Shown one piece after another: positions 18,873 through 23,242 of a stretch of DNA of 54,982 nucleotides (position 1 is the stretch's first letter; every line of letters starts with the position of its first letter). Under the pieces are notes generated by a model. The model was not told the DNA's origin. It searched no databases and saw only the letters and a program-made list of their open reading frames with translations. This stretch comes from Gemmatimonadota bacterium (GTDB taxonomy: Bacteria; JAAXHH01), in NCBI GenBank assembly GCA_009837395.1, contig VXTP01000020.1:38599-93580 (forward strand), written 5' to 3'. The translations under genes and the position numbers were made by a program.

Positions 18873-19895
18873 TTACGTCGCTTCGAACACCTTGCCGATT
18901 TCATCCCGGTCGAAGGCCGGGAGATCGGTGATTTCACCCTTGCTCCTGATCCGGATACCGAACTCGGGGGGCTGTACGGACCCGATCTCGGCGACCGGGA
19001 TGCCGGCGTCGCCAAGACGGACCGCAAGGGGCTTCGCACGGTCCGCCTCCACCACGATGAGCAGGGCGCCCGACGCAATGACGCCCAGGGGATCCAGGCC
19101 GTAAAACGCACAGAGGGCCTCCGGTTCGGGCAGCAGCGGAATCCGGTCCTCCTCGATGAGCATGCCGACCCCGGAAGCGACCGCGATCTCCCGCAGTCCC
19201 GACGCGAGTCCCCCCTCCGTCGGATCGTGCATGGCGCGGACCCCGCCGGTTTCCATGGCGAGGCGGGCTTCCCTGACCACGCTGAGGCCAGGCTGCCTGA
19301 GGTATCGCCGGCAGGTCTCGAGGAATTCGTCGGAGAATCGCGTCCGGACTTCGTCGCTTTTTTCCATAGCGATCAGCGCCGTCGCCTCGATGGCGATCCC
19401 CTTGGTCAGCAGGATCCGGTCGCCCAACCGGGCGCCGTCGCCGGAGACATAGCCGTCGGCCGTCGTTTCTCCCAGCATCTGCCCGATCAGCAGCGGCCGG
19501 TCCAGGCCGTGGGTGATTTCGGTATGGCCGCCGCAGAGGGTGATGCCGAGTTCCCGGCAGGCATCGGCCAGGCCGGAGAATATGCGGTCCACCAGTTCGG
19601 CGTCGGTTTTATCTTCCGGAAGCAGTATGGTCGAGAGGAACCACCGGGGCGTCGCGCCCATGGCGGCGACGTCGTTGGCGTTGATGTTGACGGCGTACCA
19701 GCCGATTTCCTCGGTGGCGAAGGTGATGGGGTCGGTTTTCGAGACGAGTACGCCGGGACCGAATGAGATGACCGCGGCGTCCCGGCCGATGCCCGGGCCC
19801 ACGAGCAGTCTCGGGTCGGCGCCCGAAGCATAGCGGCGCAGGATGCGGTCCAGGTCTTCCGCGGGCAGCTTGCCGACCGGGTAATAGGGAGGCAT
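18873..19895 (-). CDS. AIR synthase-like / HypE-like protein
   Basis: A 340-residue ATP-binding protein of the PurM/AIR-synthase superfamily, closest in look to HypE. The N-terminal glycine-rich segment GPGIGRDAAVISFG and the AVNINANDVAAMGATPRWFL motif are typical of the dimer-interface ATP site. The C-terminal domain carries MHDPTEGGLASGLREIA. It lacks the C-terminal PRIC tail of true HypE and the Cys/Sec loop of SelD. No hydrogenase genes are nearby. It is downstream of HU on the same strand. Substrate is unknown; members outside hydrogenase clusters are often annotated only as AIR-synthase-related. Confidence 0.82.
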   Translation of the reverse strand: MPPYYPVGKLPAEDLDRILRRYASGADPRLLVGPGIGRDAAVISFGPGVLVSKTDPITFATEEIGWYAVNINANDVAAMGATPRWFLSTILLPEDKTDAELVDRIFSGLADACRELGITLCGGHTEITHGLDRPLLIGQMLGETTADGYVSGDGARLGDRILLTKGIAIEATALIAMEKSDEVRTRFSDEFLETCRRYLRQPGLSVVREARLAMETGGVRAMHDPTEGGLASGLREIAVASGVGMLIEEDRIPLLPEPEALCAFYGLDPLGVIASGALLIVVEADRAKPLAVRLGDAGIPVAEIGSVQPPEFGIRIRSKGEITDLPAFDRDEIGKVFEAT

Positions 19896-19940: not shown

Positions 19941-20243
19941 TTATTCCCGACGCTTCCGCTGGGCGCGCAAAGCTTCTTTCAGGATCTTGCCGGGCTTGAA
20001 CTTGGCTTTCCGGCGGGCCGGAACCTCGATGGTGTAGCCGGTACGCGGATTGCGGGCCGCCGGCTTGGGGCGGGTATTCCTGATCTCCAGCGCGCCGAAT
20101 CCTCTGATCTCGATCCGGTTGCCCTCGACCAGGTTCTCCCGCATGATTTCGAAGAGCGCGTCGATCACGGGATAGATCTGCGTCTTTTTCAGTCCCAGCG
20201 TCTCGCTGATTTCGTTGACCAGTTCTCTGCGCGTTGTCGTCAT
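19941..20243 (-). CDS. HU/IHF family nucleoid protein
   Basis: A 100-residue DNA-bending protein of the HU/IHF family. The alpha-helical dimer core is followed by the RGFGALEIRNT beta segment and the DNA-binding arm ARNPRTGYTIEVPARR with its intercalating proline. The lysine/arginine-rich tail LKEALRAQRKRRE is slightly longer than in HU. It overlaps the stop of the class II aldolase gene by four bases (ATGA), so it is translationally coupled to it, which is an unusual pairing. Whether it acts as HU or IHF-like cannot be decided. Confidence 0.93.
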   Translation of the reverse strand: MTTTRRELVNEISETLGLKKTQIYPVIDALFEIMRENLVEGNRIEIRGFGALEIRNTRPKPAARNPRTGYTIEVPARRKAKFKPGKILKEALRAQRKRRE

Positions 20244-20923
20244 GTAGGTTCCTCGGTCCGGTGTTCTTTCTTTCCGCCGGATGAACAGGGCAGGCCGTGC
20301 AGGCGGTGCAGCTTGTCCACGTTCTCCTGGTCGATGGTGTTGACCCGGCCGAGCATGCGCGCCACGAGGGCGATCTGCGCGCAGTGCTCCATGGTTTCCA
20401 TCTTGTGATAGGCCGAAACGATGTCCGGACCCAGGGTCAGCGCGCCGTGGTTCTCCAGCAGGACCGCGTCGTAGTCCCGAACGAATCCCCGGAGCGATTC
20501 GACCAGTTCCATGGTTCCCGGCGTCCCGTAAGGCGCGATGGGCACGAAACCCAGGGAGACGATCACCTCGGGCAGCAGGGCGTCGGGCAGATGCACGCCG
20601 GCCACCGAGAATCCCGTCGCCGCCGGGGGATGGGCGTGGGCCACGGCATGGACGTCCGGGCGCTCGCGGTACACCATCAGGTGCATCTTCATCTCTGACG
20701 ACGGCTCGTGCATCCCCGAGATCACCGCGCCGTCATAGTCGACGATCACGAATTTGTCCGGGTCCAGGAAACCCTTGCTCACCCCGGTCATCGTGATCAG
20801 CAATCGGTCTTCGGACAGTCGAACGCTTAAGTTCCCGTCGTTCGAGGCTACGTATCCCCGGTCATACATCCGCTTGCCGACGTGGATTACATCGGATACG
20901 ACTTGCTCTATTTGCAAGATCAC
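20240..20923 (-). CDS. Class II aldolase/adducin family protein
   Basis: A 227-residue zinc-dependent aldolase of the fuculose-phosphate / ribulose-phosphate epimerase (AraD/FucA) family. The zinc histidines are in AVAHAHPPAAT and LLENHGALTLG, and a catalytic glutamate is in SSEMKMHLMVYRER. Such enzymes split L-fuculose-1-phosphate or related phosphosugars to dihydroxyacetone phosphate and an aldehyde, or act as sugar-phosphate epimerases. The length fits. The ATG at 20923 is chosen because it gives a complete N-terminus and follows a well-formed promoter. It overlaps HU by four bases. Confidence 0.88.
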   Translation of the reverse strand: MILQIEQVVSDVIHVGKRMYDRGYVASNDGNLSVRLSEDRLLITMTGVSKGFLDPDKFVIVDYDGAVISGMHEPSSEMKMHLMVYRERPDVHAVAHAHPPAATGFSVAGVHLPDALLPEVIVSLGFVPIAPYGTPGTMELVESLRGFVRDYDAVLLENHGALTLGPDIVSAYHKMETMEHCAQIALVARMLGRVNTIDQENVDKLHRLHGLPCSSGGKKEHRTEEPT

Positions 20924-21029: not shown

Positions 21030-22481
21030 TTACAGGCCGGACCGCACGATTCGCGCCACGTCGACGATGCGGTGCCGCGCCACGCCCCGCATATCGATCC
21101 GGACCCGGTCCCGGCCGCATTCGGCCAGCAGCGGCGGTGTTGCTTTCAGCCACCGGGCCGCCAGGCCGGCGGGATCGCCGTCCGGCGGGCGTATGGATAC
21201 GGCGTAACCGGGCAATGCGTCGGCGGGGAGGCGGTACGCCGTGAGATACGCCCGGCTTTCGATCAAATCACACGCCCCGCGGAGCCGGCGGACATCAGAC
21301 AGGCTTTCGCACAACAGGCGGGCGCGAGTGCCTACCTCTTCCCTGGTCGCGGCGAGCATGTGGGCTGCCGGATGGCACGCGAGGTCGCAGGCGCTTTCGG
21401 CCAGTTCCGCCAACCGTGCGTCGAATCCCGCCCGCACGTGCCGGGAGGCCTGCGCCGCTGGCCAGGTGCCGTGCGCTCTAAGTCGCGCGATGACCTGTCG
21501 CGTTCCGATCAGCAGTCCGCAGGGCGGACCGCCGATCAGGCCGCCGCCGGCCGCGATGGTCAACGGCGTACCGGACCGCACGGCATTGGTGACCGAGCTT
21601 CTCGCCGCAAACGGGGCGGAAGGGACCGGGCGCAACGTCGTATCGCCGGCCAGGTGCAGCACCGTGGCGCCGGATTCCGCACCGGCCCGGGCGATTTCCT
21701 CCGGGGCCGCTTCCTCGGTGAAACCACGAAGGGCGCAGGTGGACGGACGGGCCGTGACGATCAGTGCGGTCCGGTTTCCCATCGCGCGCCGGTAGTCGGA
21801 AAGGCGGGACTTGTTGGTGGCGCCGGCCTCGACCATCGTGGCGCCGGAAAGCGCGCAGAGCGACACCGGGTTCACGGGCCGATCCTCGTAAGGCGCGTCG
21901 ATCAATCCCGCCTGGCTGCGGCCGATGACCACTTCCGCCCGTCCCACGAGCGCCCGGACCGCCAGGAGAAAGGCGTCGGCGACGGACCGGCAGACGAGTA
22001 CGTCTTCGGCGCCGGTCAAATCGTGCACGAGTCCGGCGGTACGGCCGTCCTCCTCGTAAGCCGCGAGGGTGAGGCCCAGCCTCGAGGCGCTCCCGGCGGC
22101 CGTTCCGGCGTAGTGTTCCCGCACAAGCGGATGGAAGATTATGCCGGAGGCGTTGATCGGCACCTCGCCCGCCGAACGGGCTTCACTCTCCAGGCGCGCG
22201 GCGGCCCGTTCGGCGAGACGCTCCGGCGCGAATACGTCCGCTTCCGCGTGTCCGTCCGCTTCCGCGTGTCCGTCCGCTTCAGCGTGTCCGTCCGCTTCCG
22301 TCTCCGGGGGACGAAGCCGGATCCGGTCCCGCGCGTCGCGTAGCACCTTCCGGATCGCGGCGTCGATCTGCCCGTCCTCGAACCGGCCGCGCAGCGCCTC
22401 GATCCGGGACTCGCCTTGCATCAGGCGCACGGAAGGCAGGCGGGCGAATTGGCGCTGCAGCGCTTCCCGGCCGGGGCTCAT
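21030..22481 (-). CDS. SelA-like protein lacking the PLP lysine
   Basis: A 483-residue homologue of selenocysteine synthase (SelA), which converts seryl-tRNA(Sec) to selenocysteinyl-tRNA. Family landmarks include EVPINASGIIFHPLVREHYAG, LTGAEDVLVCRSVADAFLLAVRALV, GATMVEAGATNKSRLSDYRRA and STCALRGFTEEA. In real SelA the PLP lysine lies in a GDKLLGGPQAG motif. Here the matching segment is GGGLIGGPPCG, so both the aspartate and the lysine are replaced by glycine. It is therefore unlikely to use PLP in the normal way. Residues 60-80 carry an EADGHA repeat absent from the family. The ATG at 22481 has a GGAGG site and overlaps the previous gene by four bases. No selB, selD or tRNA-Sec was seen in the window. 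Confidence 0.75.
   Translation of the reverse strand: MSPGREALQRQFARLPSVRLMQGESRIEALRGRFEDGQIDAAIRKVLRDARDRIRLRPPETEADGHAEADGHAEADGHAEADVFAPERLAERAAARLESEARSAGEVPINASGIIFHPLVREHYAGTAAGSASRLGLTLAAYEEDGRTAGLVHDLTGAEDVLVCRSVADAFLLAVRALVGRAEVVIGRSQAGLIDAPYEDRPVNPVSLCALSGATMVEAGATNKSRLSDYRRAMGNRTALIVTARPSTCALRGFTEEAAPEEIARAGAESGATVLHLAGDTTLRPVPSAPFAARSSVTNAVRSGTPLTIAAGGGLIGGPPCGLLIGTRQVIARLRAHGTWPAAQASRHVRAGFDARLAELAESACDLACHPAAHMLAATREEVGTRARLLCESLSDVRRLRGACDLIESRAYLTAYRLPADALPGYAVSIRPPDGDPAGLAARWLKATPPLLAECGRDRVRIDMRGVARHRIVDVARIVRSGL
22236..22302. repeat. 18-bp in-frame repeat in the SelA-like gene
   Basis: An 18-base unit resembling gcgtgtccgtccgcttcc recurs about three and a half times between 22236 and 22302. 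On the minus strand it encodes the EADGHA repeats. Frame is kept and the repeat lies in a linker between the N-terminal helical region and the PLP-fold core. Confidence 0.9.
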
Positions 22482-23242
22482 TTGTCCCTCCCTTTCCTGA
22501 TTACCGCGTCGAGCGCGGTTTCCGTGCATCGGCCGATCAGGTGGTCGCCGCCGGCCCGTAGCGTCCGTATTTCCCGGGCAAGCCGGTCCAGGTCGGCGGG
22601 ACGGTCCACGTCGTGCCAGGCCGGGAGTTCGTGGCATGAAAGCCCGCTAGCCCGGATGGCCGCTCGGGTCTGCCGCAGCACCCGGCCGGTGCCCCAGTGT
22701 ATGGATTCGAACAGTCGGTCGTACCGGCTGGTGGCGTTTCTGCGGCGTCCCGGACCGCCAGGGTCGCCCGATCCACCTGATCCGCCTGGACCGCCCAGTC
22801 CGATCAGGTAATAACCGCCGTCATCGGCGGGACCGAGCACGACGTCGTGCCCGTCCAGCGCCTCGAAAGCCTCTTCGACGAAAGCCAGGGGGAGGAGGGG
22901 GCTGTCACCGCCCAGTATGACGGTCTTTTCCCATCCGTCCTGCCGGATATCCGCGAAAGCGTTCGACAACCTGTCCCCGAGGTGGCTGCCCCGCTGACGA
23001 AGCCAGTTCACATCGGGATCACCCGGACAGCCCAGGGCGGATTCGAGTTCCTCTCGCCCGTCGTCGGGCGTCCAGGCCACGAAGAGGGATGCGACGGCGG
23101 TCCGCTGCGCCAGGTGCAGCGTGTCCACGATAAAGGCGCGGTAGAGTTCGGCGGCCTCGTCCATCGTTACCCGGGGCGTCAACCGGGTTTTCACGGTCCC
23201 CGGTCTCGGTGCTTTCATGAACAGGACGAGGGCGTTCGACAT
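22478..23242 (-). CDS. TIGR04282-type glycosyltransferase (rSAM/selenodomain-associated)
   Basis: A 254-residue nucleotide-sugar-transferase fold protein of the DUF2064/TIGR04282 family. The opening ALVLFMKAPRPGTVKTRLTP carries the nucleotide-binding loop, and GSHLGDRLSNAFAD, VILGGDSPLLPLAF and DVVLGPADDGGYYLIGL are family marks. The family is named for its frequent company with radical-SAM and selenium-related genes, which fits the overlapping SelA-like gene. The exact substrate is unknown. The ATG at 23242 begins the conserved core; the open frame runs to 23332 but that part has no family similarity. A low-complexity GGPGGSGGSGDPGGPG stretch after the DDGGYYLIGL motif is repeat-encoded. Confidence 0.85.
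   Translation of the reverse strand: MSNALVLFMKAPRPGTVKTRLTPRVTMDEAAELYRAFIVDTLHLAQRTAVASLFVAWTPDDGREELESALGCPGDPDVNWLRQRGSHLGDRLSNAFADIRQDGWEKTVILGGDSPLLPLAFVEEAFEALDGHDVVLGPADDGGYYLIGLGGPGGSGGSGDPGGPGRRRNATSRYDRLFESIHWGTGRVLRQTRAAIRASGLSCHELPAWHDVDRPADLDRLAREIRTLRAGGDHLIGRCTETALDAVIRKGRDK

Follow-up and report, generated by a model that had tools for sequence, protein, structure and literature searches.

A SelA paralogue without its PLP lysine as the probable non-catalytic partner of a SelA without its N-terminal domain

A selA homologue that has lost its active site

The locus described here raises the question of what a homologue of the selenocysteine (Sec) synthase SelA can still do once its PLP lysine is gone. 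The gene, termed LONG, lies in the window (the whole stretch of 54,982 nucleotides that was analysed) between two conserved neighbours:

21030..22481, minus strand: LONG, a non-catalytic SelA paralogue bearing the N-terminal domain (NTD); 483 aa plus stop
22478..23242, minus strand: glycosyltransferase-like gene (TIGR04282/DUF2064) that overlaps LONG at its 5' end
20240..20923, minus strand: class II aldolase family gene, downstream of LONG

The frame of LONG has an ATG start and a ribosome site (AGGGAGGG), and its start overlaps the upstream gene as TGA/ATG. This upstream neighbour had been assigned in the preliminary description to the rSAM/selenodomain-associated transferases, and it was confirmed as TIGR04282 by a score of 172.5 bits (cut-off 134); the aldolase probably serves a function separate from LONG. 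Across the order, an AIR synthase-family gene (window 18876-19895) is also conserved near LONG, scoring below the cut-offs of the ThiL, HypE and SelD models; it was discarded as a SelD given its 98 bits (cut-off 125), a mixed ThiL/HypE/SelD signal, and genuine SelDs elsewhere.

LONG is a SelA-fold protein according to Pfam SelA (PF03841, 118 bits), and it matches NCBIfam TIGR00474 from model position 2 with 156.1 bits, below the curated cut-off of 267.9. A fold search of the PDB with the AlphaFold model (pLDDT 74.8, pTM 0.64) returned the A. aeolicus SelA 3w1h as best match, and the homology to canonical SelA, a homodecamer (A. aeolicus 3w1h, E. coli 8uzw), extends over the full length including the NTD. 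The protein is divided as follows:

22308..22460, minus strand: NTD (canonical-NTD HMM, E 2e-6; AlphaFold helices 18-55)
22182..22307, minus strand: variable linker of EADGHA tandem units (aa 59-100), with varying repeat number and little constraint
21033..22163, minus strand: fold-type I core, catalytically dead (aa 107-483; PF03841 118 bits, catalytic residues replaced)
21789..21836, minus strand: segment VEAGATNKSRLSDY, reported at the dimer-dimer interface and with 85% of conserved residues kept (aa 216-231, corresponding approximately to 187-200 of A. aeolicus SelA)
21540..21548, minus strand: GGG replacing Gly-Asp-Lys by alignment (aa 312-314, the last of them in the PLP lysine column)

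At the PLP lysine, IAAGGGLIGGPPCG of LONG is aligned against VSFSGDKLLGGPQAG of SelA, placing a glycine at K295 of E. coli SelA (K285 in A. aeolicus) and another in the D294 column, so that the reported GGG in place of GDK is borne out. Alignment with SelAs placed no alternative lysine at this position of LONG, ruling out a misalignment hiding one. When the K295 column was compared more widely, as had been proposed, it held G in 14 and E in one of the 15 LONG orthologues, and K in 25/25 canonical SelAs.

The landmarks preceding the active site, which had been described as kept, are so in part: the NTD, the TGAE and VGATNK..DY motifs and the GGP..G turn are retained, while other residues stand in place of Ser282, Arg312 and the two motifs NNN and SRGELVEIGG, and the region of Arg119 is deleted. 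Among the selenophosphate and catalytic residues, LONG has G for D284, P for R312 and Q for R315, in addition to the Arg119 deletion; the R86 column does hold an aligned R, in a stretch that is poorly aligned. Catalytic residues were lost in all 15 LONG proteins. With the lysine and most of the PLP and selenophosphate residues gone, the claim that LONG cannot carry out the normal PLP chemistry is supported.

LONG is maintained by purifying selection

LONG occurs in each of the 12 species sampled from the genus, at 64-86% identity, and also in G013 (38% identity), G014 (35%) and G015 (26%), which belong to the same order (Candidatus Latescibacterota); in G012 it is present as a fragment at a contig edge. 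All 12 species and G013-G015 have an intact frame of LONG, and the order transferase-LONG-aldolase is kept in all of them, that is, in four family-level lineages; G012 retains the aldolase beside the contig edge. Pairwise dN/dS values within the genus were 0.29-0.53 for LONG against 0.12-0.23 for SHORT, the second selA copy of these genomes (see below), LONG thus evolving faster. In the linker of LONG, pN/pS was 0.5-1.6, indicating little constraint and near neutrality, whereas the NTD and the core are constrained. The number of EADGHA units (window 22236-22301) differs among species of the genus.

Since the orthologues are intact and syntenic, and dN/dS is low with the near-neutral linker as an internal control, LONG is maintained under purifying selection. 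The argument for selection drawn earlier from the intact frame therefore held, and the suggested comparison of synonymous and non-synonymous changes gave a purifying ratio of ~0.3-0.5. That LONG is a decaying selA relic, as its lost active site and faster evolution might suggest, is hardly credible: it is contradicted by frames that stay intact in every one of the 12 species and also in G013-G015, at identities as low as 26%, by the synteny, and by a dN/dS of 0.3-0.5 against ~1 in its own linker. Of the two options offered in the preliminary description, a decayed paralogue or something new, decay is rejected and an altered role stands, more likely that of a partner subunit than an unrelated function.

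A second selA copy and the Sec machinery

The strong SelA match of this genome is SHORT (contig C36, 126808-127911; 454 bits, and 497.9 bits with TIGR00474), which lies on a different contig from LONG and is unlinked to it. Both proteins fail the model TIGR01437 (DgaE / D-glucosaminate-6-phosphate ammonia lyase, cut-off 385.3), with 20.1 bits for LONG and 69.6 for SHORT. Every catalytic and selenophosphate residue examined is present in 14/14 SHORT proteins, and all 14 are devoid of the NTD, the frame being closed by a stop 1-50 codons ahead of the catalytic core. A tRNA-Sec with anticodon UCA (70.6 bits) adjoins SelB, and the pair is ~20 kb away from SHORT; SelD is also encoded, at loci away from LONG. 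The search for a normal selA together with selB, selD and tRNA-Sec, which had been recommended, thus recovered all of them, with the qualification that the other selA has no NTD. SepSecS (TIGR03531) gave no match over the cut-off in 16 genomes of the phylum; therefore, no alternative Sec synthase was found.

Some genomes had incomplete sets. SHORT was not detected in G014 (83% complete), though LONG, SelB, tRNA-Sec and a Sec-type SelD are present there; tRNA-Sec and SelB were not detected in G009 and G015 (85-87% complete), nor SHORT and tRNA-Sec in G012, which is rated 99% complete but consists of 430 contigs and has SelB at a contig end.

In the family of the window, SelD (L124, L130 and others) forms part of a frame of 700-900 aa with a fused domain and an active-site Cys; in G014 and G015 it is stand-alone with an in-frame TGA, which in G014 corresponds to Sec at the SelD active site. 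A scan for selenoproteins by conserved in-frame TGA over 400 kb of G000, compared with G006, yielded only gene-end overlaps and ambiguous cases, and none was identified in the window's genus.

The NTD and an interface segment are retained

An HMM built from canonical SelA NTDs of other phyla matched all 15 LONG orthologues (E 1e-5 to 3e-17), with a significant match in none of 26 NTD-less SelAs. PF12390 matches the NTD of the orthologues L018, L019 and L022, but not that of LONG in the window. In the core of LONG, the positions conserved among canonical SelAs are kept very unevenly, 85% of them in the VGTTN....DY segment against 30-60% in the other multi-residue regions; likewise, the two fullest dead copies of a second phylum (see below) keep 88% in this segment against 10-44% elsewhere in the core. 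The residues T191, T192 and D199 of A. aeolicus SelA, which fall in this segment, are reported to lie at the dimer-dimer interface of the ring, as is the 218-224 loop (PMC4607533), and SelA-N in isolation captures tRNAs with a long D-stem in cells (PMC7590224). LONG and the two fullest dead copies keep both the NTD and the interface segment, and therefore have what a ring subunit presenting tRNA would need. Retention of the segment points to ring assembly, though it may have other roles.

Because SHORT has no NTD and LONG keeps one, a non-catalytic partner subunit is likelier for LONG than a decayed paralogue or an unrelated function. We consider that Sec synthase is probably split into two subunits here, LONG being the non-catalytic one that binds the tRNA; as judged from the sequences, the Sec-making enzyme appears to be divided between two proteins in the genomes that carry LONG and SHORT.

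The same division in a second phylum

We sampled 384 genomes for TIGR00474. Among the matches listed, those of other lineages are almost without exception single full-length SelAs; in G135 and G272, which represent one family in the sample, an NTD-less SelA is found alongside tRNA-Sec and SelB. Three further candidates for an NTD-less SelA (G374, G070 and G308) were discarded as contig splits, the N-terminal part being on another contig.

The family of G135 and G272 belongs to the second phylum, of which 14 genomes were covered: 12 carry an NTD-less SelA keeping the lysine, and 10 a dead SelA relative; the HMM confirmed that the NTD is absent from all 12 NTD-less proteins. The two fullest dead copies (425-436 aa) have a clear NTD (PF12390, 5e-9 and 5e-7) and G in place of the lysine. 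The remaining ones, of ~250-370 aa, start with the same PPSV motif as the fullest, and in the most reduced the NTD match by HMM is weak or absent. An extra N-terminal region of 60-90 aa (approximately MKVxVDGxxxxVRxGxPVExxLSExQRR...GAYFTV) precedes the PPSV motif in L207, L208, L210, L211 and L213; no Pfam match to it was obtained in the three proteins scanned. The gene directly 5' of the NTD-less selA is that of tRNA-Sec in G385 and G384, with selB alongside in G385, and by this position the NTD-less SelA would therefore be the Sec synthase.

These observations bear on whether SHORT makes Sec at all. Since NTD loss has been called a hallmark of SelA homologues that are not used for Sec (PMC4607533), SHORT could resemble the Helicobacter pylori SelA, with another enzyme making Sec and LONG as its cofactor-less helper. 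We regard this as very improbable: most of these genomes carry tRNA-Sec and SelB, the NTD-less selA of the second phylum has selC as a neighbour in two genomes and selB in one, no SepSecS was found, and SHORT keeps all catalytic and selenophosphate residues.

A different possibility is that LONG has an unrelated function together with the TIGR04282 transferase and the class II aldolase, SHORT being sufficient as Sec synthase. The gene order kept across four family-level lineages speaks for it; however, the dead partners of the second phylum have no such neighbours and still display the identical domain pattern, and retention of a tRNA-Sec-binding NTD would be left unexplained, making this reading quite unlikely. 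No neighbourhood common to the dead partners of both phyla was found, and the transferase, which had been pointed out earlier, turned out to be uninformative.

LONG might also bind tRNA-Sec without assembling with SHORT, as a chaperone, a reservoir or a competitor limiting Ser-tRNA-Sec, while SHORT works NTD-free. Its retained NTD would allow this, and inside cells, tRNAs with a long D-stem can be sequestered by SelA-N on its own (PMC7590224). Nevertheless, the dead copies of both phyla keep the dimer-dimer segment better than the rest of the core, which argues for assembly, Sec use is tied to an NTD on SelA itself (PMC4607533), and the co-occurrence of LONG with NTD loss would be left without a reason. 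We hold this explanation to be unlikely, if less so than the two preceding ones.

The split may have arisen once or twice: a single clade of the NTD-less SelAs from both phyla was not rejected (AU p 0.79) but was not recovered freely, and the dead copies are long branches in the trees.

A proposed two-subunit Sec synthase

Returning to the division of labour proposed above, selA would have been duplicated, the SHORT copy then losing its NTD while keeping the PLP/selenophosphate active site, and the other copy, LONG, losing the active site while retaining the NTD and the dimer-dimer segment. The NTD of LONG would grip the long D-arm of Ser-tRNA-Sec and present the acceptor end to SHORT, whose active site would make Sec with selenophosphate by PLP chemistry; LONG would also complete the ring. 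A mixed assembly of this kind could work because in canonical SelA each tRNA-Sec sits between two dimers and reacts in an active site that belongs to the neighbouring dimer.

At the level of sequence, LONG and SHORT are paired by the complementarity of their domains and by co-occurrence in two phyla; from this we infer that they would associate physically, that LONG would bind tRNA-Sec and that SHORT would depend on LONG. It is rather likely, in our estimate, that the Sec synthase of at least two bacterial phyla works only as a hetero-oligomer, made up of a PLP-bearing, NTD-less catalytic subunit and a dead paralogue providing tRNA-Sec recognition and ring contacts; in one phylum the latter would have been reduced to ~250 aa (NTD plus interface segment).

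Both halves are recognisably SelA, and enzymes with dead partners are already known elsewhere. Serine palmitoyltransferase (LCB1/LCB2) and tRNA-guanine transglycosylase (QTRT1/QTRT2) consist of an obligate catalytic subunit and a paralogue without catalytic residues, the same kind of pair as proposed for SHORT and LONG in different enzymes; in those pairs the dead partner is not known to make up for a tRNA-binding domain that the active subunit has lost. SepCysE is not known to be a paralogue of its enzyme SepCysS. In Methanocaldococcus jannaschii these two (PDB 3wkr, which was among the fold-search matches) constitute a PLP enzyme acting on aminoacyl-tRNA with a separate helper protein, whereas the adaptor proposed here would be a dead copy of the enzyme itself. 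Canonical SelA has NTD and active site on one polypeptide, in contrast to the separate paralogues LONG, without the PLP lysine, and SHORT. The NTD-less SelAs of Helicobacter pylori and Frankia (PMC4607533) resemble SHORT in keeping the catalytic residues; however, Sec decoding has been lost there, while SHORT genomes have tRNA-Sec, SelB, SelD and a dead NTD-bearing paralogue. In the literature searched, we found no description of a two-part Sec synthase.

If the proposal is correct, tRNA recognition and catalysis would reside on different proteins in the synthesis of the 21st amino acid. How the ring coordinates its ten tRNAs with its active sites could then be tested with two separable parts, and the pair could help to engineer Sec or allo-tRNA systems. 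There are also consequences for annotation. An NTD has served as the marker by which Sec-making SelAs are recognised (PMC4607533), a rule that the LONG/SHORT genomes break while keeping tRNA-Sec, SelB and SelD, and annotation by NTD would mislabel the real enzyme, SHORT, as a non-Sec SelA. Separately, the orthologue L019 of G014, which is lysine-less (GDG), passes the equivalog cut-off of TIGR00474 (351 against 267.9 bits), and annotation by this model labels a dead copy as an active Sec synthase.
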